From NCBI GenBank assembly GCA_028280845.1, contig JANQKZ010000006.1, forward strand, positions 62,001 to 126,000: 64,000 nucleotides of DNA, in the 5' to 3' direction. The translations under genes and the position numbers were made by a program. Source of the stretch: Opitutales bacterium. GTDB lineage: Bacteria > Verrucomicrobiota > Verrucomicrobiia > Opitutales > JABSRG01. This document shows, piece after piece, positions 51,864 to 60,882 of the stretch. A model generated the notes under the pieces. The model was not told the origin of the DNA, did not search any database, and worked only from the letters and a program-made list of their open reading frames with translations. How positions within the stretch are numbered: the first letter of the stretch is position 1; the number at the start of each line of letters is the position of its first letter.

Positions 51864-53186
51864 TCATTCCTTCAAATTGATCTTAATGCCCCGCCGCAGG
51901 TAGGTGGGAACATCAAGGTCTTCGCCATCATAGAGGTTGCGCTCTGTGTTATCAAAAAAACCCCGCTGCTCCTCTTCCGACAGAAACATGAATTCGTTCT
52001 GGTCGAACAGGTTAGCCTGCTGCTTTTTCTTTTTCAGTTTGGACTCATGAACTTCATATCGAGAGCGAGTGAAGTCTTCAGGAGGAGCTGGCGTCTTTCC
52101 AAGGGCCTCAGCTTGCTCAGGCTCATCCAGGACGAGGGGTTCATCCGAATTGTGAGACACTGCCGCTGCAGGTGGTTTTTCGTAGTTCGATTTTTTAGAC
52201 AGCACCGTCGTACCAATCACTACAATTTCGACCGAGTTCGTTCGACTCTCGTCGATGGTAGCACCCATCACAATATTGTCCCGGCAGCCGAGCTTCTCAG
52301 ATACCGTGGCCATGATCTGGTTGACCTTGCCCATGGTTAAATCGGTCCCTCCTGTGATTTGAACCAGGAGATTGTCCGCTTTTTTTGAATACTCCTGGAT
52401 GTGGAGCAGCGGACAGAGCAGGAGATCATCCAGGGCTTGCTGAACGGCATTCTCCCCATTGGCGTAACCGAGACTGAAAACGGTCTTTCCACCTCGCTCG
52501 ACAAAGACCTGTTTTAAACTGGAGAAATCCTGGTTGATTAATCCGGTTTTCAAAAGCATCGCACAGATAGATTGGATAGCCCGGCGGATCCAGTCATCCG
52601 CCATGCCAAAGGCATCCAGGACGGTGGCTTCATCCCCCTCGGTCTGCAGCAGCACATCATTAGGGAGGGGAATGACGGCATCACAGGATTTCCGCAACAG
52701 GCCCATGGCTTCATCGGCCGCTTTCTTGCGCCGCCCCCCTTCAAAGGTAAAAGGGAGCATGGTAAATGCGATCGTCAACGCGCCCTGAGCTGCGGCTAAT
52801 TCGGCGATCAAGGGAGCGGCTCCACTGCCAGTTCCACCTCCCAGACCGGCGACGATGAAGACCAGGTCACACCCGTTAACGAGCTTTTCAAGTGCAGGGC
52901 GATCGGCTTCCACCGCATCCCGACCCAACGCGATCTCTCCACCAGTACCCATTCCACGGGTAACGCCGCGGCCAATCATGATCTTTTCGGAAACCAGGGA
53001 ATTAGCCAGGGCTTGCATATCCGTGTTCACCGAGGCCAGGTGTACCTCAGTCAAATCACTCAGCTTGAGCCGGTCGATGGCATTGGTCCCTGCGCCTCCC
53101 ACTCCGATAATTTTAACCCGAATGGGCTCCCCGGAGAGATTGCCGGTAAACATCGTGTCGGGCTTGTTGAAGTTGTCTCCTTGCAT
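51864..53186 (-). CDS. ftsZ: cell division protein FtsZ (T7 loop atypical)
   Basis: Tubulin-like GTPase of 440 residues that forms the division ring. The GTP-binding T4 signature GLGGGTGSG is at 115-122, with NTD, FEGGRR and NDVLLQ segments all present, and the C-terminal anchoring peptide VPTYLRRGIKI is recognisable. The T7 catalytic loop reads NQDFSSL (218-224) instead of NxDFxDV: the first Asp is kept (Asp220) but the second, E. coli Asp212, is Ser223. The nucleotide sequence supports this reading. The linker before the C-terminal peptide is charged (KKKKQQ, EEEQ). It is the last gene of the dcw cluster. Confidence 0.95.
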   Translation of the reverse strand: MQGDNFNKPDTMFTGNLSGEPIRVKIIGVGGAGTNAIDRLKLSDLTEVHLASVNTDMQALANSLVSEKIMIGRGVTRGMGTGGEIALGRDAVEADRPALEKLVNGCDLVFIVAGLGGGTGSGAAPLIAELAAAQGALTIAFTMLPFTFEGGRRKKAADEAMGLLRKSCDAVIPLPNDVLLQTEGDEATVLDAFGMADDWIRRAIQSICAMLLKTGLINQDFSSLKQVFVERGGKTVFSLGYANGENAVQQALDDLLLCPLLHIQEYSKKADNLLVQITGGTDLTMGKVNQIMATVSEKLGCRDNIVMGATIDESRTNSVEIVVIGTTVLSKKSNYEKPPAAAVSHNSDEPLVLDEPEQAEALGKTPAPPEDFTRSRYEVHESKLKKKKQQANLFDQNEFMFLSEEEQRGFFDNTERNLYDGEDLDVPTYLRRGIKINLKE

Positions 53187-53204: not shown

Positions 53205-54422
53205 TTATGAAAAATTCAGGTTTAGCATCCGGGCGACCTTCCTCAGGAGACCCTTAGATGACGTTTGTTGCACATCCCCATCCTGATGTCCTGTCAAGGC
53301 GTAGTGAAGCAAGCCAAGCGCAGTGCTGTAATCCGGCCCGCGCAGGCCCTCCTGCACCCAATCCGGGCTACGTCCCAGGGAAGCTTCCAGATTCAAGGCC
53401 TCCCCCGCAAGGAGGTCAATCCCCGGCAGTTGGGAGGTGCCACCAACCAGCTTGACCCCGGCGGGTAAGTAATCCCGGGTGCCCAAGCGACCCAGCTCCT
53501 TCTTCACGATTTTGAAGAGTTCTTCCAGGCGGGCATTCAAAATCTGGCAAATCGCAAAGCGGGGTAAATTTCGGTCACCAATCGTAAAGTCACCAATTAA
53601 CCAGACTTTTTCATCCCGCGCCTTTTTGTTCACCAGAGCGTGGCCGTAGTTGAGCTTCAGGTATTCGGCATGTTTGCGGTTCACCCGCAGTCCGATGCTC
53701 AGGTCATTCGTTAAATGGTCACCCCCGACAGGGATCACGCCGGTCTGCACAATGTATCCATCTTTGTAGACCACGTAGTCTGTCGTGCCGCACCCGATAT
53801 CCAGGACCAGGACCCCCGCCTGCTTTTCACTCTCCTCGGTTACCATTGAGCCCGCCGCGATGCTGGAAATGATCATGTCTTCAACATTCAACCCGAAGGC
53901 ATTAATCACTCGGATTTGATCGCTCAGTTTGCGCTCCGATCCATGGACACTCCAGTAGCCAACCTCGAGCCGGCTACCTTCCATGTGGAGGGGTTCGTCT
54001 ACTTGCTGACCATCCAGGTAAAAAGGATTGCGGATATGATGAATGTACACCCGCTCCACCGGCAGCTGCTTACACTTCGCGTCTTCAACGGCCCGTTCAA
54101 TATCCTGTCGCCCCACGATGTTGTGAGAACTACTGACCTGGGCCATGCCCCGATTAAAGGAGCCTTTCAAGTGTCGACCGGTTTGCGCCAGGTAAATAGA
54201 GTCAATCGTGACCTGAGCAGATTTTTCCGCCGCAAGGATAGCCGCATGCGTACAATTACTGGCTGCTTTAAAATCGTGAACCTCCCCCTTTTTGATCCCC
54301 TGCGAAGAGCATGCACCCTTGCCGATAATGTTGCAGGTGCTGTCACCCACCAGTTCCCCCACGAGAACTACGGTCTTTGCCGTTCCAATTTCTACGGCAC
54401 CTATAATTTTACTTTGGCTCAT
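53205..54422 (-). CDS. ftsA: cell division protein FtsA
   Basis: Actin-like protein of 405 residues that anchors FtsZ to the membrane. The start is the ATG at 54420-54422 (MSQSKIIGAVEIGTAKTVVLVGE), the usual FtsA N-terminus; an earlier frame start would overlap ftsQ. ATP-binding motifs include VLDIGCGTTDYVVY and VKLVGGTSQLPGIDLLA, and the C-terminal amphipathic helix KGLLRKVARMLNLNF fits membrane targeting. It lies between ftsQ (46 bp upstream) and ftsZ (18 bp downstream). Confidence 0.94.
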   Translation of the reverse strand: MSQSKIIGAVEIGTAKTVVLVGELVGDSTCNIIGKGACSSQGIKKGEVHDFKAASNCTHAAILAAEKSAQVTIDSIYLAQTGRHLKGSFNRGMAQVSSSHNIVGRQDIERAVEDAKCKQLPVERVYIHHIRNPFYLDGQQVDEPLHMEGSRLEVGYWSVHGSERKLSDQIRVINAFGLNVEDMIISSIAAGSMVTEESEKQAGVLVLDIGCGTTDYVVYKDGYIVQTGVIPVGGDHLTNDLSIGLRVNRKHAEYLKLNYGHALVNKKARDEKVWLIGDFTIGDRNLPRFAICQILNARLEELFKIVKKELGRLGTRDYLPAGVKLVGGTSQLPGIDLLAGEALNLEASLGRSPDWVQEGLRGPDYSTALGLLHYALTGHQDGDVQQTSSKGLLRKVARMLNLNFS

Positions 54423-54468
54423 TTTGTTGTAAGGAGTGATTGGTAGTGTATGAATCGGGTCGAGCTTC

Positions 54469-55410
54469 TCAACGTCGGGCAACCTTCCCAAAACTCACCA
54501 CCGCTGGTCCGCGGAGAGAGAGGTCAATAGATTCGATGTCTTGTAAACCAGCGTTGCCGCGTCGGCGCTGCAGATCTCTCAGGATCACATCCAGCTTTTC
54601 CAGCTGCTGGCGATAATCTGTGGTGGAAAACACCAGCTCCGGCCCCTTGCGTGGGCGAACGATAAGGGAAGCCGGGAACGGCGAGGCCTCGGGAGTGACC
54701 ATTTTCAGTGAGACAATGCGCCAGGACTCGGCCAGGTCCGGATAGTCCCGGCGAGCCATACCAAAGAGGGCATTCACCTCGTCCATTCCTCGAATCGGTT
54801 TGTAAGCTCCAGAATCCAGCTTCGCCAGCTTCACACCATCCAGATAAGGAAGGGTTTTTACGAAACCTGAATCGTAGTGCTGGCTGGGATACACCGTCCC
54901 ATCGACTGCGACAAACAGGGTTTCCAGAACCCCAAACTCTCCCTGCACCGCCAGACGTGCGCTGGGCATGCGTTCTTCCAACTCAATGAACAGTGTATCC
55001 GGAAAATGCCGCTCCACGTGCGCCGCAAACACCTGGCCGTGGGTTTCCAGGCCCTGCTTAAGTTGAAAAATATCCACCTCGGTCAGGGACGTCCCCCTGG
55101 GAATGGACAGCTTTTGCGCTAACCACGTCTCATTCAAGGTGCCGTCCGTTTCAAACAAGATCCGACGAATCGGATCATTGTGGTCCGAAAGCTCCAGCAT
55201 CGCCCCGCTGCTCTTCCAGGCAGTAACTCCCCAGGTGATCCCGCCGATCAGGGCCACGAGACCAACTAGCGTGGCGGACGCCTTTATCAACTGAATCCGT
55301 TTGCGCTTCTGCGCAGCTACGGTGACCGAATTGTTCGGAGCCGCCTGCCGAATCTGCCGCCATGATCGATTGGTAGCTTGGGAAGATTTAGACTTATTAC
55401 TGGGTGGCAT
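54469..55410 (-). CDS. ftsQ: cell division protein FtsQ
   Basis: Single-pass divisome protein of 313 residues from the ATG at 55408-55410. A basic cytoplasmic tail (about 1-45) precedes one membrane helix (about 46-66, ATLVGLVALIGGITWGVTAW). A POTRA-like domain follows (LSDHNDPIRRILFETDGTLNETWL...VERHFPDTLFIELEERMPSAR), then a beta domain with FVAVDGTVYPS and LPYLDGVKL. It is weakly conserved, as FtsQ proteins are; position between ddl and ftsA confirms it. Confidence 0.88.
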   Translation of the reverse strand: MPPSNKSKSSQATNRSWRQIRQAAPNNSVTVAAQKRKRIQLIKASATLVGLVALIGGITWGVTAWKSSGAMLELSDHNDPIRRILFETDGTLNETWLAQKLSIPRGTSLTEVDIFQLKQGLETHGQVFAAHVERHFPDTLFIELEERMPSARLAVQGEFGVLETLFVAVDGTVYPSQHYDSGFVKTLPYLDGVKLAKLDSGAYKPIRGMDEVNALFGMARRDYPDLAESWRIVSLKMVTPEASPFPASLIVRPRKGPELVFSTTDYRQQLEKLDVILRDLQRRRGNAGLQDIESIDLSLRGPAVVSFGKVARR

Positions 55411-55429
55411 AGGGGACGAGTGGCGCCGG

Positions 55430-56365
55430 TTAGCTCGGTTCGGCGATAGAATTAAAGCGGTTAATAGCTGGTTGTACAAGCTCTTTTATAATGCCTTCGA
55501 AAGAAAAACCAAAAACCGAGGCACTTTTGGGGAGCAGACTCGTAGGCGTAAGGCCGGGAAGTGTATTGATCTCTAAGAAATAGGGAGTCGAATCGGGACC
55601 CATCATAAAATCGACCCGGGCAAAATCTCGACAACCACACACCGCGAACGCGGTTTCCGCCGCGGTGCGGATTCTGCCTTCGATATGTGGATCAATTTCT
55701 GCAGGAAACCGATACTCCGTTTCCCCTGTTGTATATTTCGCAGTATAATCGTAAACCCCGCTCCTGGGAATCAGCTCCACCACGCCTAGTCCTTTTCCAT
55801 GGACTACCGCAATGCTGAGTTCTCGACCGCGAATCCGCTTTTCCACCAGCCAGGATCCTTTTTCCAGCGACCCGAGGGTCTGCACCAGGTCTACTTCCGA
55901 TTCAATCAGGTGAAGGCCCACGCTGCTCCCCTTGTCCTCTGGTTTGAGAACCAGATCGAGACCAAATTCAGATTTTATCTCAGCTACCGAGGGGACTGTC
56001 CCTGGCACGTCAAAGGTACGGCCCGGCACGACAGTCACCCCCTCCGCTTCGACCGTTCGTTTGCTCAGCGTTTTCCGGATACAAAGGCGGCTGGATGCTG
56101 CATCGCTTCCGCAGTAGTGGATCCCCTGCGCTTCCAAGAGGGCCTGCACTTGGCCATCCTCCCCGAATTCCCCATGGAGCGCAGGGTAGACAATCGTCGT
56201 TTCCGGATTCAGAGAGGTTGGTAAACTCGCGGTATTCACTTCTACCCGGTTCACCTGGAAATCCTGTTCAAGGGCTTCAGAGAGACACCGTCCGGTGATT
56301 AATGCGATTGCTCGCTCGTCTCCAACTCCCCCGGAAAGCACCGTTATGGAAGGATCTTTACTCAT
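55430..56365 (-). CDS. ddl: D-alanine--D-alanine ligase
   Basis: ATP-grasp ligase of 311 residues making the D-Ala-D-Ala dipeptide of peptidoglycan. Motifs are the N-terminal VLSGGVGDERAIAL, the central YPALHGEFGEDGQVQALLEAQGIHYCGSD, the ATP-grasp LVLKPEDKGSSVGL and the C-terminal YFLEINTLPGLTPTSLLPKSA with the metal-binding Glu and Asn. It overlaps the murC-murB fusion gene by 8 bp and is 19 bp upstream of ftsQ. Confidence 0.95.
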   Translation of the reverse strand: MSKDPSITVLSGGVGDERAIALITGRCLSEALEQDFQVNRVEVNTASLPTSLNPETTIVYPALHGEFGEDGQVQALLEAQGIHYCGSDAASSRLCIRKTLSKRTVEAEGVTVVPGRTFDVPGTVPSVAEIKSEFGLDLVLKPEDKGSSVGLHLIESEVDLVQTLGSLEKGSWLVEKRIRGRELSIAVVHGKGLGVVELIPRSGVYDYTAKYTTGETEYRFPAEIDPHIEGRIRTAAETAFAVCGCRDFARVDFMMGPDSTPYFLEINTLPGLTPTSLLPKSASVFGFSFEGIIKELVQPAINRFNSIAEPS

Positions 56366-58664
56366 CCTCGACCAGGACCTCCTCCCATTTGGTTCCCAGG
56401 AGCAGTACCTCGGGCTCCAACAGAATCCCGCGTTCGGCTTTTACGCGATGGCGAATGCGTTTCACAAGGGTGATCACGTCGCGACTGGTAGCCTGGCCCT
56501 TATTGATGATAAAATTGGCATGGATGTCCGAAACCTGAGCATCTCCCTCGCGCATGCCTTTCAATCCGAGTTGGTCAATGATGCGCCCCGCTCCGTCATT
56601 TTCCGGATTCTTAAAGATACAACCCGCACTCGGCTCCTTAGGTTGGCTCGCCTTCCGGGTCAGCATATATTCCTGCATGCGTTTCCGAATAACCTCGCTC
56701 TCCTCTTTGCCTGGGCTCTTTAAAATAGCCCCCAGGGCCACCGCCGTTTTCAGTTCTTCCACACTGCGGTAGCCCACCCGGAAGTGGGATTTATCCAGAT
56801 CGAGTATACGTCCATCGTTTTGCACCAGGAGGACGCGTTCCACCACATCAAACATCCAACTCCCCATGGCGCCTGCATTCATCCGGAGCGACCCGCCCAG
56901 GGATCCCGGGATGCCCTCCATAAATTCAAACCCAGTCAACTCCGAACGAGCCGCAAACGCCGCCAGGTCACGTAGCCGGATCCCCGCCCCGGCGAAGAGA
57001 CGGTTGCCGTCCAGGATGTCGACCCGCCTCCAGGTCTCGTGCTGAAAACGGATCACGAGCCCATCAAACCCATCGTCGTGAATGATCAGGTTGGAGCCTC
57101 GGCCCAGGGTAAAACTGGGGAGGCCCAGGAGACGGGCGTTCCGCAATAAAACCCGCAGATCGGCGACGGATACCGGCTCCGCGTAGCACTGCGCTGCACC
57201 GCCGATACGAATGGTCGTCTTACCCAGCAGGGGTTCATCCACCGATACCACGGTATCCGGATTGACCCGGTCCTTTACAATATCAATGAATTGATTTTTC
57301 AGTTCGGAAGGATATCGCCATTTAGAAGCAAAAGCGGAAGCAACCTCGGTTATATCACCGGCCCCGATAAACAGATACAGGGTGCGTCTGCGGTGACAGT
57401 CCCGCAGCGATGAAAACAGCTCCGGCCCGGCCTCCGGCGTGATCGGGTCCAGCTCCTGATCCTTAAACTCCACCACCAGGTCTTCCAACATGCCACCGCG
57501 CAGCGGCCGCTCACTCGCCCCGTAGACAGGCAGCAGGAATAATCGATCCACCCCGGAAAAGGCGTGAGCCAATTCACGCTTAAACATCTGGGTCCGGGTG
57601 TAGCGATGCGGTTGGAAGATGACGACGACATCCGATTCCGGATGATTGGCTGCCATGACCGACAGAAACTCTTTGATCTCCGTAGGATGATGGGCGTAGT
57701 CCTCCCAGATCGAAATTTGTTCGTTTTGAAATAAACACTGTTGGCGCCGCAACACACCTGGCAGATTTTCCAGATCCTCGGGGTGAGCCTCCCCGGTGAT
57801 CCAGTGAACCGCCGCCAGGGCCGCTGCCGCATTGCGGGCATTAAATCCTCCCGGGGCTTTGACGGAGATCTCCCGGTCGCCAAATGGAGCCCGCGTGGTC
57901 ATCTTGACCCGCTCGGAAGTGGAGTCCTTGATCGCAAAAGTGTAATCGGCGTCCTCTCCAAAGGTCCGGATTTCGGGTATATTGACATCCCGGGCAATAG
58001 CTTCCATGCGAGACTCCTTGGGCACGATCACGCCATACTTGGTCCGCGCGAACAGGCGAGCCACCGTCGCCTCGAACTCTTCTACCGACCGGTATTGATC
58101 CACATGATCCAGGTCGAGGTTGAGCGCGACGGTGATGAAAGGGTCAAATCGCTCAATGGTTCCATCGCTTTCATCCACTTCGATCACCACCCAGGGACAA
58201 TCCTCAGCGTATTGGGAAGGGAGCATGGACGGGTCTGCAAACAGACCACCGAGGACATAGCCAAATTCAAATTCCATCTGGCGAAGCAGGTGGATAATCA
58301 TGGCCGTGGTGGTCGTTTTTCCATGGCTGCCGATGATGGCCACCACCTTCTTATCTTTCACGACTTCAGCCAGCATCGCCCCGCGGCGCCATATACGGCT
58401 CCCCGCTTCCTGGGCTCGCACCAGTAGCGAATGGGTCGGACCAATGGCGCTGGAAATTACCATGCGGGGAGGTGGTGATCGAAATGTATTGAAATCATCA
58501 ATACGTACCCCGGACTCAACCAATAGTTTCCGGCAGTTTTCCGGCATATGCATATCTTCACCTGTCAAGGACCAACCCGCTTGCGAAAGGTAAATGGCCA
58601 GGGGGGTCATTCCCATGCCCCCAACACCCAGAAAGTGCGCCGTTTGTGATCCGTCCTCGCTCAT
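56358..58664 (-). CDS. murC-murB: MurC-MurB fusion (UDP-MurNAc-L-alanine ligase and UDP-MurNAc dehydrogenase)
   Basis: Bifunctional protein of 768 residues. Residues about 1-460 are MurC: FLGVGGMGMTPLAIYLSQAG, the ATP loop IGSHGKTTTTAMI (111-122), EVDESDGT, and LNLDLDHVDQY. From about 475 it is MurB: NTVVSVDEPLLGKTTIRIGGAAQ-type start, RGSNLIIHDDGF for FAD, GIPGSLGGSLRMNAGAMG, SAGCIFKNP with Cys at the proton-donor position, and EPEVLLLG. It thus reduces the enolpyruvyl UDP-GlcNAc and then adds L-Ala. It overlaps murG by 4 bp upstream and ddl by 8 bp downstream. Confidence 0.93.
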   Translation of the reverse strand: MSEDGSQTAHFLGVGGMGMTPLAIYLSQAGWSLTGEDMHMPENCRKLLVESGVRIDDFNTFRSPPPRMVISSAIGPTHSLLVRAQEAGSRIWRRGAMLAEVVKDKKVVAIIGSHGKTTTTAMIIHLLRQMEFEFGYVLGGLFADPSMLPSQYAEDCPWVVIEVDESDGTIERFDPFITVALNLDLDHVDQYRSVEEFEATVARLFARTKYGVIVPKESRMEAIARDVNIPEIRTFGEDADYTFAIKDSTSERVKMTTRAPFGDREISVKAPGGFNARNAAAALAAVHWITGEAHPEDLENLPGVLRRQQCLFQNEQISIWEDYAHHPTEIKEFLSVMAANHPESDVVVIFQPHRYTRTQMFKRELAHAFSGVDRLFLLPVYGASERPLRGGMLEDLVVEFKDQELDPITPEAGPELFSSLRDCHRRRTLYLFIGAGDITEVASAFASKWRYPSELKNQFIDIVKDRVNPDTVVSVDEPLLGKTTIRIGGAAQCYAEPVSVADLRVLLRNARLLGLPSFTLGRGSNLIIHDDGFDGLVIRFQHETWRRVDILDGNRLFAGAGIRLRDLAAFAARSELTGFEFMEGIPGSLGGSLRMNAGAMGSWMFDVVERVLLVQNDGRILDLDKSHFRVGYRSVEELKTAVALGAILKSPGKEESEVIRKRMQEYMLTRKASQPKEPSAGCIFKNPENDGAGRIIDQLGLKGMREGDAQVSDIHANFIINKGQATSRDVITLVKRIRHRVKAERGILLEPEVLLLGTKWEEVLVEDE

Positions 58665-59824
58665 GTCGTCGGGTTGAGTGCTTCAGTGCGCCGTTTATTA
58701 GAAGGGGGAGTACCGGCGCGTTGGGCCTCAACCGCTTCGAGCAGGTCATAGATATCCTGCAGGATGCTCTGCCGGCTATCCTGCTTATCCAGCCGCTCCA
58801 GATTACTCCTGAACTTGTCCAATAACCATTCGTTGAAAATGATGTCTTTCACTTCGTCCCGCAGCGAGATAAGGTTGGCCTGAGCTACTACAATGCCTCC
58901 ACCTTGCTGCTCGTGAAAACGGGCATTGTGAAACTGGTGATTGTCCGCAGCAAAAGGATACGGAATGAGGATCGATGGTTTGTGACATCGAATGAGTTCA
59001 GCAATGGTTCCCGCACCCGCCCGCGACAGGACCAGATCCGCGGCCGAAATCACGGTCCCCATGTCATCGGAAAACGGAATAAACACCGCCTGGACCGTCG
59101 ATCCGTCAGCAGCTACCGTCTTGAGTGAACCCTGGGAGCCCTTCCCCATTCCGGTAACGGTTAAGAAGTTGATCCCCATGGCCCCTAGCTGTTCAAAGTT
59201 CTGGGCCACCCAGTCGTTGAGGGCAGCAGCCCCCTGGCTCCCGCCAAGGACGGCCAGCCATCTTCCCTTTTGCGGAATTCCCAGCTTGGCACGGGCCTGC
59301 TCCTTGGCCGTAGCTCGGATCTCATCCCGAACTGGAAATCCGTGATGCCGGATGACCCGCGGGGCCACCCCGCCCAGGCGAACTCCCGGCGGTAAATAGA
59401 TTCGATCAGCCAGGTTGCGAAGAAAGCGGATGGCACGCCCGGGTCGCCGGTTGGCCTCATGCAGAGCGACGGGAATTTTTTCCAGACGAGCCCCAACCAC
59501 AGCCCCAAAAGAGGTGAACCCACCAAATGCAATCACGATGGCGGGCCTCTCCGATTTGAGTAGTGCACGCGAAGCCATGACCCCCTTGATCTGGGAAGTG
59601 AAAAACCTCACCAGCTTGAACGGGTGCAAGAGCAGCGGAGCAGAGGGTATGGCAGTAACCGGAATCTGGGGATACTGCTGAATGAGACGAGCATCTACCT
59701 CTTTCTGGCTAATGATCAACCGACAGGTATGACCATCTTTCTGTAAACCCTGGGCAAGGGAAATTCCGGGGGCCAGATGCCCTCCGGTCCCCCCGCACAC
59801 GATGATGAAGTGTTTGGGTGTCAT
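58661..59824 (-). CDS. murG: UDP-GlcNAc:lipid I N-acetylglucosaminyltransferase
   Basis: Peripheral membrane glycosyltransferase (GT28) of 387 residues that converts lipid I to lipid II. The N-terminal GGTGGHLAPGISLAQGL loop, the central LAVLGGSQGAAALNDWV (UDP-GlcNAc fold) and the later DLVLSRAGAGTIAELIRCHKPSILIPYPFAADNHQ are characteristic. The C-terminal tail of about 30 residues is longer than usual and rich in Arg. It overlaps ftsW by 4 bp and murC-murB by 4 bp. Confidence 0.95.
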   Translation of the reverse strand: MTPKHFIIVCGGTGGHLAPGISLAQGLQKDGHTCRLIISQKEVDARLIQQYPQIPVTAIPSAPLLLHPFKLVRFFTSQIKGVMASRALLKSERPAIVIAFGGFTSFGAVVGARLEKIPVALHEANRRPGRAIRFLRNLADRIYLPPGVRLGGVAPRVIRHHGFPVRDEIRATAKEQARAKLGIPQKGRWLAVLGGSQGAAALNDWVAQNFEQLGAMGINFLTVTGMGKGSQGSLKTVAADGSTVQAVFIPFSDDMGTVISAADLVLSRAGAGTIAELIRCHKPSILIPYPFAADNHQFHNARFHEQQGGGIVVAQANLISLRDEVKDIIFNEWLLDKFRSNLERLDKQDSRQSILQDIYDLLEAVEAQRAGTPPSNKRRTEALNPTT

Positions 59825-60882
59825 AGCTCACGAGGGGTTTGCCACACGGGCCGTTCCCAAGAGCGGAAGGCATTGATCAGGAATCCGGTAAAAATAAACA
59901 TCAGGACCAGGTTGCTGCCTCCGTAACTGATGAAGGGCAAGGACATCCCTTTCGTAGGGAGGAGCCCAGTCACTACTCCAAAGTTTATCAGTGCCTGGAA
60001 CACGATGAACAGGAGGATACCCTGGACAAAGAGGAACTGGAAGAGATTGGGAGCCTTTTTCAATTGCCAGATTCCCAGCAGAAAAATGGCCAGAAAGACC
60101 AGGACAATTCCGGTGGTGAAGATCAGACCCAGTTCCTCCCCCACAATGGCAAAAATAAAATCGGTATGCGCCTCCGGCAAAAAGGACATCTGCTGGCGAC
60201 CATTGCCCAGACCCACCCCCTGCACTCCACCCGCGGCAAAAGCGAGGATGCCTTGCCAGAGTTGATATGCCCCGTCGTTTTTGTTACCCTCCAGGTCGAG
60301 AAAGGCTGTAATGCGTCGCCATCGCACAGGGTCGAGGAACACCATCACCCCAAACAAGATTCCGCCGGCCAACCCGGCCGGTATCAAATAGAGCAATCGG
60401 GTCCCGGCCAGGAAAAGCAGGGTCATCGCCACCACACCACAGAGAGCGGCAGTCCCAAAATCCGGCTGCAGAAAGATCAACCCGCACCATAGCCCAATGA
60501 TCGTGCAGGGAATAATAAATCCCTTGAATAGGCTGGGAATCTGTCGAGGACGGCTCCCCAGGTAGTGGGCCAGGACAAACAGCAGTCCGATCTTGGCAAA
60601 CTCAGCCGCCTGCAGCCGTAAAGGACCCAGACCAATCCATCGTTGCGCTCCATTGACCCGCACTCCGATTCCCGGAACCAGAACCAGGACCAATAAGGCA
60701 ATGGAGCCCAGCCCGATGATCCAACTTAGGGGTCGCAAGCGCTCGAGTGGAACAACCGTAGCCATTCCACCTGCCACAACCGCCAGGACCAGCCAGATGA
60801 GCTGCTTTTGTAGCAGGACCGTAGCGTTCTCATGCATCGCCCGGGATGCACTGAAGAGAACCGCCAGCCCGATCATGACCAA
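59821..60882 (-). CDS. ftsW: lipid II polymerase FtsW (SEDS); N-terminus probably longer
   Basis: SEDS-family membrane protein with about ten helices. Recognisable segments include GAQRWIGLGPLRLQAAEFAKIGLLFVLAHYL, LQPDFGTAALCG and AGGVQGVGLGNGRQQMSFLPEAHTDFIFAIVGEELG, which hold the conserved catalytic Asp region. The first possible standard start is TTG at 60882 (MVMIGLAVLFSAS), but this cuts into the first helix. The frame stays open upstream to 60999 and adds a hydrophobic run (ILLLCLCVGAL) without any ATG, GTG or TTG. A non-canonical start (ATT 60912 with GGAAAGGA upstream) is possible. Coordinates give the minimal gene of 353 residues. Confidence 0.9.
   Translation of the reverse strand: MVMIGLAVLFSASRAMHENATVLLQKQLIWLVLAVVAGGMATVVPLERLRPLSWIIGLGSIALLVLVLVPGIGVRVNGAQRWIGLGPLRLQAAEFAKIGLLFVLAHYLGSRPRQIPSLFKGFIIPCTIIGLWCGLIFLQPDFGTAALCGVVAMTLLFLAGTRLLYLIPAGLAGGILFGVMVFLDPVRWRRITAFLDLEGNKNDGAYQLWQGILAFAAGGVQGVGLGNGRQQMSFLPEAHTDFIFAIVGEELGLIFTTGIVLVFLAIFLLGIWQLKKAPNLFQFLFVQGILLFIVFQALINFGVVTGLLPTKGMSLPFISYGGSNLVLMFIFTGFLINAFRSWERPVWQTPREL

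Follow-up and report, generated by a model that had tools for sequence, protein, structure and literature searches.

Descriptions of FtsZ present the two aspartates of its T7 loop as conserved across species and as catalysing together; D212-type mutants serve as standard low-GTPase controls in studies of treadmilling and constriction. The window analysed here, a stretch of 64,000 nucleotides from the genome of an Opitutales bacterium (Verrucomicrobiota), encodes an FtsZ with serine in the place of E. coli Asp212. This raises the question of whether the protein is an artefact, a failing enzyme, or a working FtsZ that manages with one T7 aspartate. The features on which the analysis draws are as follows.

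51864..53186, minus strand: ftsZ coding sequence, 440 aa (open reading frame; PF00091 at 128.7 bits, cut-off 33; PF12327 at 56.4 bits, cut-off 27; AlphaFold2 model)
51879..51920, minus strand: conserved C-terminal peptide DLDVPTYLRRGIKI, FtsA-binding type (invariant residues in alignment A1)
52515..52535, minus strand: T7 loop N218-Q-D220-F-S-S223-L224 (LINQDFSSLKQVF) (translation and alignment to E. coli FtsZ)
52518..52520, minus strand: AGT codon, Ser223 at the place of E. coli Asp212 (sequence)
52527..52529, minus strand: GAT codon, Asp220, equivalent to E. coli Asp209, the T7 acid that is kept (sequence; column acidic in 90/90 Opitutales of the tree sample)
52821..52841, minus strand: GGGTGSG nucleotide-binding signature, residues 116-122 (translation; Ser common in the phylum)
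53205..54491, minus strand: ftsA, directly upstream of ftsZ (TIGR01174 at 293.7 bits, above cut-off; PF14450)
54469..55479, minus strand: ftsQ with FtsQ-type POTRA domain (PF08478)
55430..56365, minus strand: ddl (PF07478 and PF01820)
56358..58664, minus strand: murC-murB fusion (PF01225, PF08245, PF02875, PF01565, PF02873)
58661..59824, minus strand: murG-like open reading frame of the dcw cluster (position and sequence)
59821..60882, minus strand: ftsW (open reading frame; PF01098 match at G000:C26:121866-122906)

A lone ftsZ at the end of an intact dcw cluster

The original prediction named no strand; the gene is on the minus strand. Alignment to E. coli FtsZ equates N218 with N207, D220 with D209 and S223 with D212, bearing out the original prediction that the second T7 aspartate is replaced and the first retained. 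The loop reads NQDFSS where the canonical two-aspartate motif is NxDFxD, so we file the protein as a variant rather than a canonical FtsZ. Its identity as an FtsZ rests on both Pfam domains, its fold, a single copy 3' of ftsA in the dcw cluster and the C-terminal peptide. An AlphaFold2 model from this FtsZ and 44 relatives (pLDDT 83.8; a monomer, so the interface lies beyond its reach) aligned by Foldseek to B. subtilis FtsZ 2vxy with a target TM of 0.94, and the best 50 PDB matches were all FtsZ, with about 32–38% identity to solved FtsZs. A putative FtsA-binding peptide, EDLDVPTYLRRGIKI, lies at the C-terminus, and its core is invariant among relatives (D423, L424, D425, P427, T428 and R431 across alignment A1). 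The protein fell short of the equivalog threshold of TIGR00065, the only such model matched (276.2 vs 295.2 bits; E 4.6e-82); the shortfall is one of classification threshold, not a biological feature, and fits the known divergence of verrucomicrobial FtsZs (PMC9871819).

Searching the source genome (4.79 Mb, 97.7% complete, 62-contig draft) with PF00091 returned one match, this ftsZ, in agreement with the prediction of a sole copy. Pfam matches and open reading frames likewise recovered the predicted dcw operon in full: murD, a LysM protein, ftsW, murG, the murC-murB fusion, ddl, ftsQ and ftsA, overlapping or closely spaced, with ftsZ as the last gene. A murC-murB fusion has also been reported for Verrucomicrobium spinosum. 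The gene had been called presumably functional, which we judge right as a presumption. Compared with canonical FtsZs (E. coli, B. subtilis, S. aureus), the protein shares the fold, the GTP signature, the Mg/K-site residues, R142, N207, D209, the C-terminal peptide and the dcw position; it differs in Ser223 for D212, NQDFSS for NxDFxD, and GGGTGSG.

That last substitution had been flagged in the original prediction as a second departure. The motif is present as described, but its unusual status was overstated: serine occupies this place in 74/101 Opitutales FtsZs and 18/40 from the other orders of the class, and GGGTGSG conforms to the tubulin signature [SAG]GGTG[SAT]G. Both the divergence and the serine of GGGTGSG were reported in 2007 for the FtsZ of V. 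spinosum (PMC1845146). GGGTGSG is ordinary for the phylum.

Breadth and age of the Asp212 loss

Searches across 177 genomes from the order and 384 from the class yielded 141 aligned FtsZ sequences covering most families; 80 named loci were added through an alignment query, a single-protein query having returned none. In Opitutales (n = 101) the 212 column holds Thr in 41 sequences, Ser in 17, Ala in 16, Asp in 10, His in 6 and Met in 4, with other residues in the rest; it is acidic in 38 of the 40 sequences from the other orders of the class (Asp 37, Glu 1). Among the named loci, all those labelled Opitutia lack the 212 acid, including Cerasicoccus maritimus NBRC 105382, Opitutus, Lacunisphaera and Rariglobus, and the outgroups Pedosphaera, Chthoniobacter and Lentisphaerae retain it. 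The closest relatives of the window's FtsZ are labelled Opitutia/Puniceicoccaceae, which backs the original guess at Opitutia.

A maximum-likelihood tree of the 141 sequences, inferred with T7 columns excluded under a quick LG+G4 model in which the deep order is not firm, recovered Opitutales as a single clade (90 rows, SH-aLRT 100, stem 0.42). The 212 acid is missing in 86 of these 90 FtsZs and the 209 acid is present in all 90. The four rows with Asp at 212 (two from family f24, one each from f8 and f2) lie nested within the clade, which suggests regains or retained states; the nearest outgroups (f29, f31, f37) carry FADL or FNDL. The tree requires a minimum of six changes at position 212 and seven at 209, and one loss of the 212 acid on the Opitutales stem is the simplest history. 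This loss is an ancient trait of nearly the whole order Opitutales and is not private to the source genome. The very divergent families f3, f19, f22 and f26 (e.g., loci L049, L083 and L095) were excluded from the tree; their complete-looking reading frames carry broken nucleotide-binding signatures (LGGGFSGG, LGRGFASG, LSGGTGSG) and degraded T7 loops.

Probable GTP hydrolysis with one T7 aspartate

We consider it probable that this is a normal, functional FtsZ running a one-aspartate (D220) GTPase with Arg153, likely slower or retuned. As FtsZs generally do, one subunit would insert its T7 loop into the GTP pocket of the next, where the retained Asp220 (E. coli D209, S. aureus D210) would swing and position the catalytic water. 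The partner Arg153 (E. coli R142, the "arginine finger") and the Mg/K-site residues N54, D56, Q58 and N218 are also retained. The second acid, which normally holds the same water and bridges to the arginine, appears to have been discarded once on the Opitutales stem, and position 212 has since drifted among Thr, Ser, Ala, Met, His and Gly. Other, putative Opitutales changes would hold the T7 loop in place. GTP hydrolysis would continue with D220 alone doing the chemistry.

Such a division of labor has a precedent in high-resolution S. aureus FtsZ filaments, in which D210 (equivalent to D209) swings to position the catalytic water and the static D213 (equivalent to D212) helps keep that water and is water-linked to R143 (equivalent to R142) (PMC8936486), making a 209-only enzyme plausible. 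The laboratory mutants E. coli D212G and D212A, B. subtilis D213A and S. aureus D213N lost the same carboxylate as here, and slow hydrolysis is a fair prediction by analogy with them. There are functional precedents for life without it: low-GTPase E. coli D212G is reported to work in division (cited in PMC4383033), and B. subtilis D213A slows treadmilling while cells co-expressing it still make rings and constrict (PMC8079713). S. aureus D213N does not assemble at all (PMC8936486) and E. coli D212G replaces FtsZ only with genomic suppressors (PMC5405962), so that loss of the 212 acid is normally harmful and compensating changes may exist. In contrast to these harmful or suppressor-dependent mutations, the Opitutales loss arose in nature, is ancient and has become fixed across an order.

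The pattern of constraint among 74 Opitutales sequences is consistent with a one-aspartate enzyme. Column 212 has an entropy of 2.40 bits (rank 240 of 305 columns) and column 209 one of 0.24 bits (rank 25), with R142 ranked 41st, E138 13th and D45 9th. That 212 is among the most variable columns indicates that a constraint was lifted there rather than another residue installed. Among 70 sequences without D212, R142 is Arg in 65, and G71 shows no variation. In a Cerasicoccus-like group, one clade only, Met at 212 coincides with His at R142, a pairing that fits the water bridge between both residues described for S. aureus.

An unlikely alternative is that a residue gained on the Opitutales stem stands in for the D212 carboxylate, leaving hydrolysis near normal. 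Compensation is possible, since numerous Opitutales-specific columns date to this long stem (0.42); moreover, an acid can move within T7, as it has at position 211 in a sister clade described below. Position 211 in Opitutales, however, is mostly A, S or G. At the T3-loop position of E. coli N73 the protein carries an acid (Glu84; compare alpha-tubulin Glu71), but Asp or Glu occupies this position class-wide, with or without D212, and we rejected it as a replacement. Scanning all columns for acids gained in sequences without D212 turned up, within T7 and T3, D209 alone; the most enriched acids lie at E. coli positions 253, 277, 284, 307 and 315 and in the tail, among others. No acid conserved in this group can be placed at the catalytic site, and the original suggestion of hydrolysis by another residue is so far unsupported. 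GGGTGSG was also considered as possible compensation. Thr110 is present in 23/30 two-acid and 17/188 one-acid FtsZs (Fisher 1.4e-14, uncorrected for kinship), but independent tree pairs supply about three informative events (median p 0.5) and the association may be shared ancestry; we rejected this candidate too.

It is quite unlikely that the protein is a hydrolysis-dead or very slow scaffold that polymerises with GTP, hydrolyses minimally and is turned over by other proteins. In its favour, D212A/G mutants hydrolyse GTP much more slowly, yet their rings still constrict (PMC4383033; PMC8079713). The more degraded signatures of f3, f19, f22 and f26, and reduced genomes that are apparently FtsZ-less, would also fit a relaxing role. 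Against this, the strict 209 acid, R142, D45 and E138 argue for ongoing selection on catalysis or GTP-coupled assembly.

An artefact is highly improbable in spite of the draft assembly and the TIGR00065 shortfall: a sequencing error at residue 223, one of two objections raised with the original prediction, fails since AGT is two substitutions from GAT or GAC, which no single base error explains, and since dozens of independent genomes, isolates included, share the loss; a pseudogene is at odds with the intact reading frame; and the other objection, a second canonical ftsZ, fails on the lone PF00091 match.

Loss of Asp209, apparently FtsZ-less genomes and significance

A Verrucomicrobiales/Akkermansia-like clade (17 rows, SH-aLRT 99; the names of its coded families are given by similarity to named loci) mirrors the one-aspartate FtsZs of Opitutales. 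The 209 acid is wholly gone, the 212 acid is kept, and most members carry an extra Asp at 211 (NxGxDD). Class-wide, Asp or Glu is found at 211 in 16 of 29 sequences that lost the 209 acid vs 0 of 112 that kept it. V. spinosum/Akkermansia-type FtsZs (PMC1845146) belong to the same phylum, have GGGTGSG and, in the Akkermansia-like clade, one canonical T7 aspartate; they differ from the FtsZ described here in which aspartate is kept and in the added acid at 211. While right about the replaced aspartate, the single ftsZ and the dcw setting, the original prediction missed both the order-wide trait and the loss of D209 in this sister lineage.

Over 221 FtsZs, both T7 acids are present in 30, only 209 in 157, only 212 in 31 and neither in 3, giving 188 with exactly one, all counts being of sequences rather than independent events. 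Sampling the phylum's other classes gave 38 FtsZs (divergent rows, with a less sure alignment): 14 with both, 13 with only 209, 10 with only 212 and one with neither. The window's FtsZ falls in the single-acid group, defined by an acid at just one of positions 209 and 212 within a single clade. Mutual exclusivity of the two losses was non-significant in independent-pair tests, which had too few informative pairs, and retention of at least one T7 acid is a pattern and no proven rule. We give even chances to the broader idea that the verrucomicrobial T7 loop needs one acid whose choice is negotiable, taking the forms NxDFxD, 209-only NxDFx[T/S/A] (Opitutales), and 212 with an acid shifted to 211, NxGxDD (Verrucomicrobiales/Akkermansia-like). 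If true, evolution has uncoupled two aspartates that textbooks pair.

Further T7 loops lacking Asp at 209 (TTADL, GLPDL, TTLGDL) were seen at loci L140 and L143 and the f40 loci L312/L313, TTLGDL occurring in complete 0.9 Mb genomes. One Opitutales genome carries a second, Akkermansia-type FtsZ (NVGLDD; L098, G069:C5:60200-62300) beside an ordinary one, either by contamination or by transfer.

Tubulins pair their T7 loops differently, with Glu254 in alpha-tubulin and Lys254 in beta-tubulin; beta-tubulin has no acid at the place corresponding to D212, and the site facing that place does not hydrolyse GTP. Unlike tubulin, every FtsZ subunit here is without this acid and has no alternating partner subunit. 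A full-text literature search, with subscription papers beyond its reach, found no report of natural FtsZs without either T7 aspartate, and the word "loop" is absent from the text of the 2007 V. spinosum paper (PMC1845146). Natural T7-aspartate loss in FtsZ is thus, provisionally, new to the literature.

FtsZ was not found in 13 Opitutales genomes of 0.8–1.0 Mb, mostly about 90–95% complete, in families f6, f25, f27 and f28 (G006, G076, G087, G025, G042, G057, G072, G028, G060, G074, G086, G097 and G033; loci L236-L242 for some). A clear FtsA was not found in these 13 either, the family matches being MreB-like by length and score, or absent. Two FtsW/RodA proteins and Mur ligases are kept in 11/11 of the FtsZ-less genomes checked, and murD-LysM-ftsW synteny persists in several of them without the murG-to-ftsZ stretch after it. 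These reduced genomes may represent one more, possibly independent, origin of division without FtsZ among PVC bacteria. Two f16 genomes, G035 (2.7 Mb, three contigs) and G080 (2.3 Mb, one contig), gave no FtsZ match, and same-genus relatives have one; G080 also lacked FtsA/MreB, FtsW and Mur ligase candidates, reflecting either a wall-less cell or a data problem.

A D212-less order beside a D209-less sister clade offers natural proteins for separating the roles of the two aspartates. The Opitutales FtsZs raise the question of whether division needs fast GTP turnover, and they bear on the route by which certain PVC bacteria arrived at division without FtsZ.
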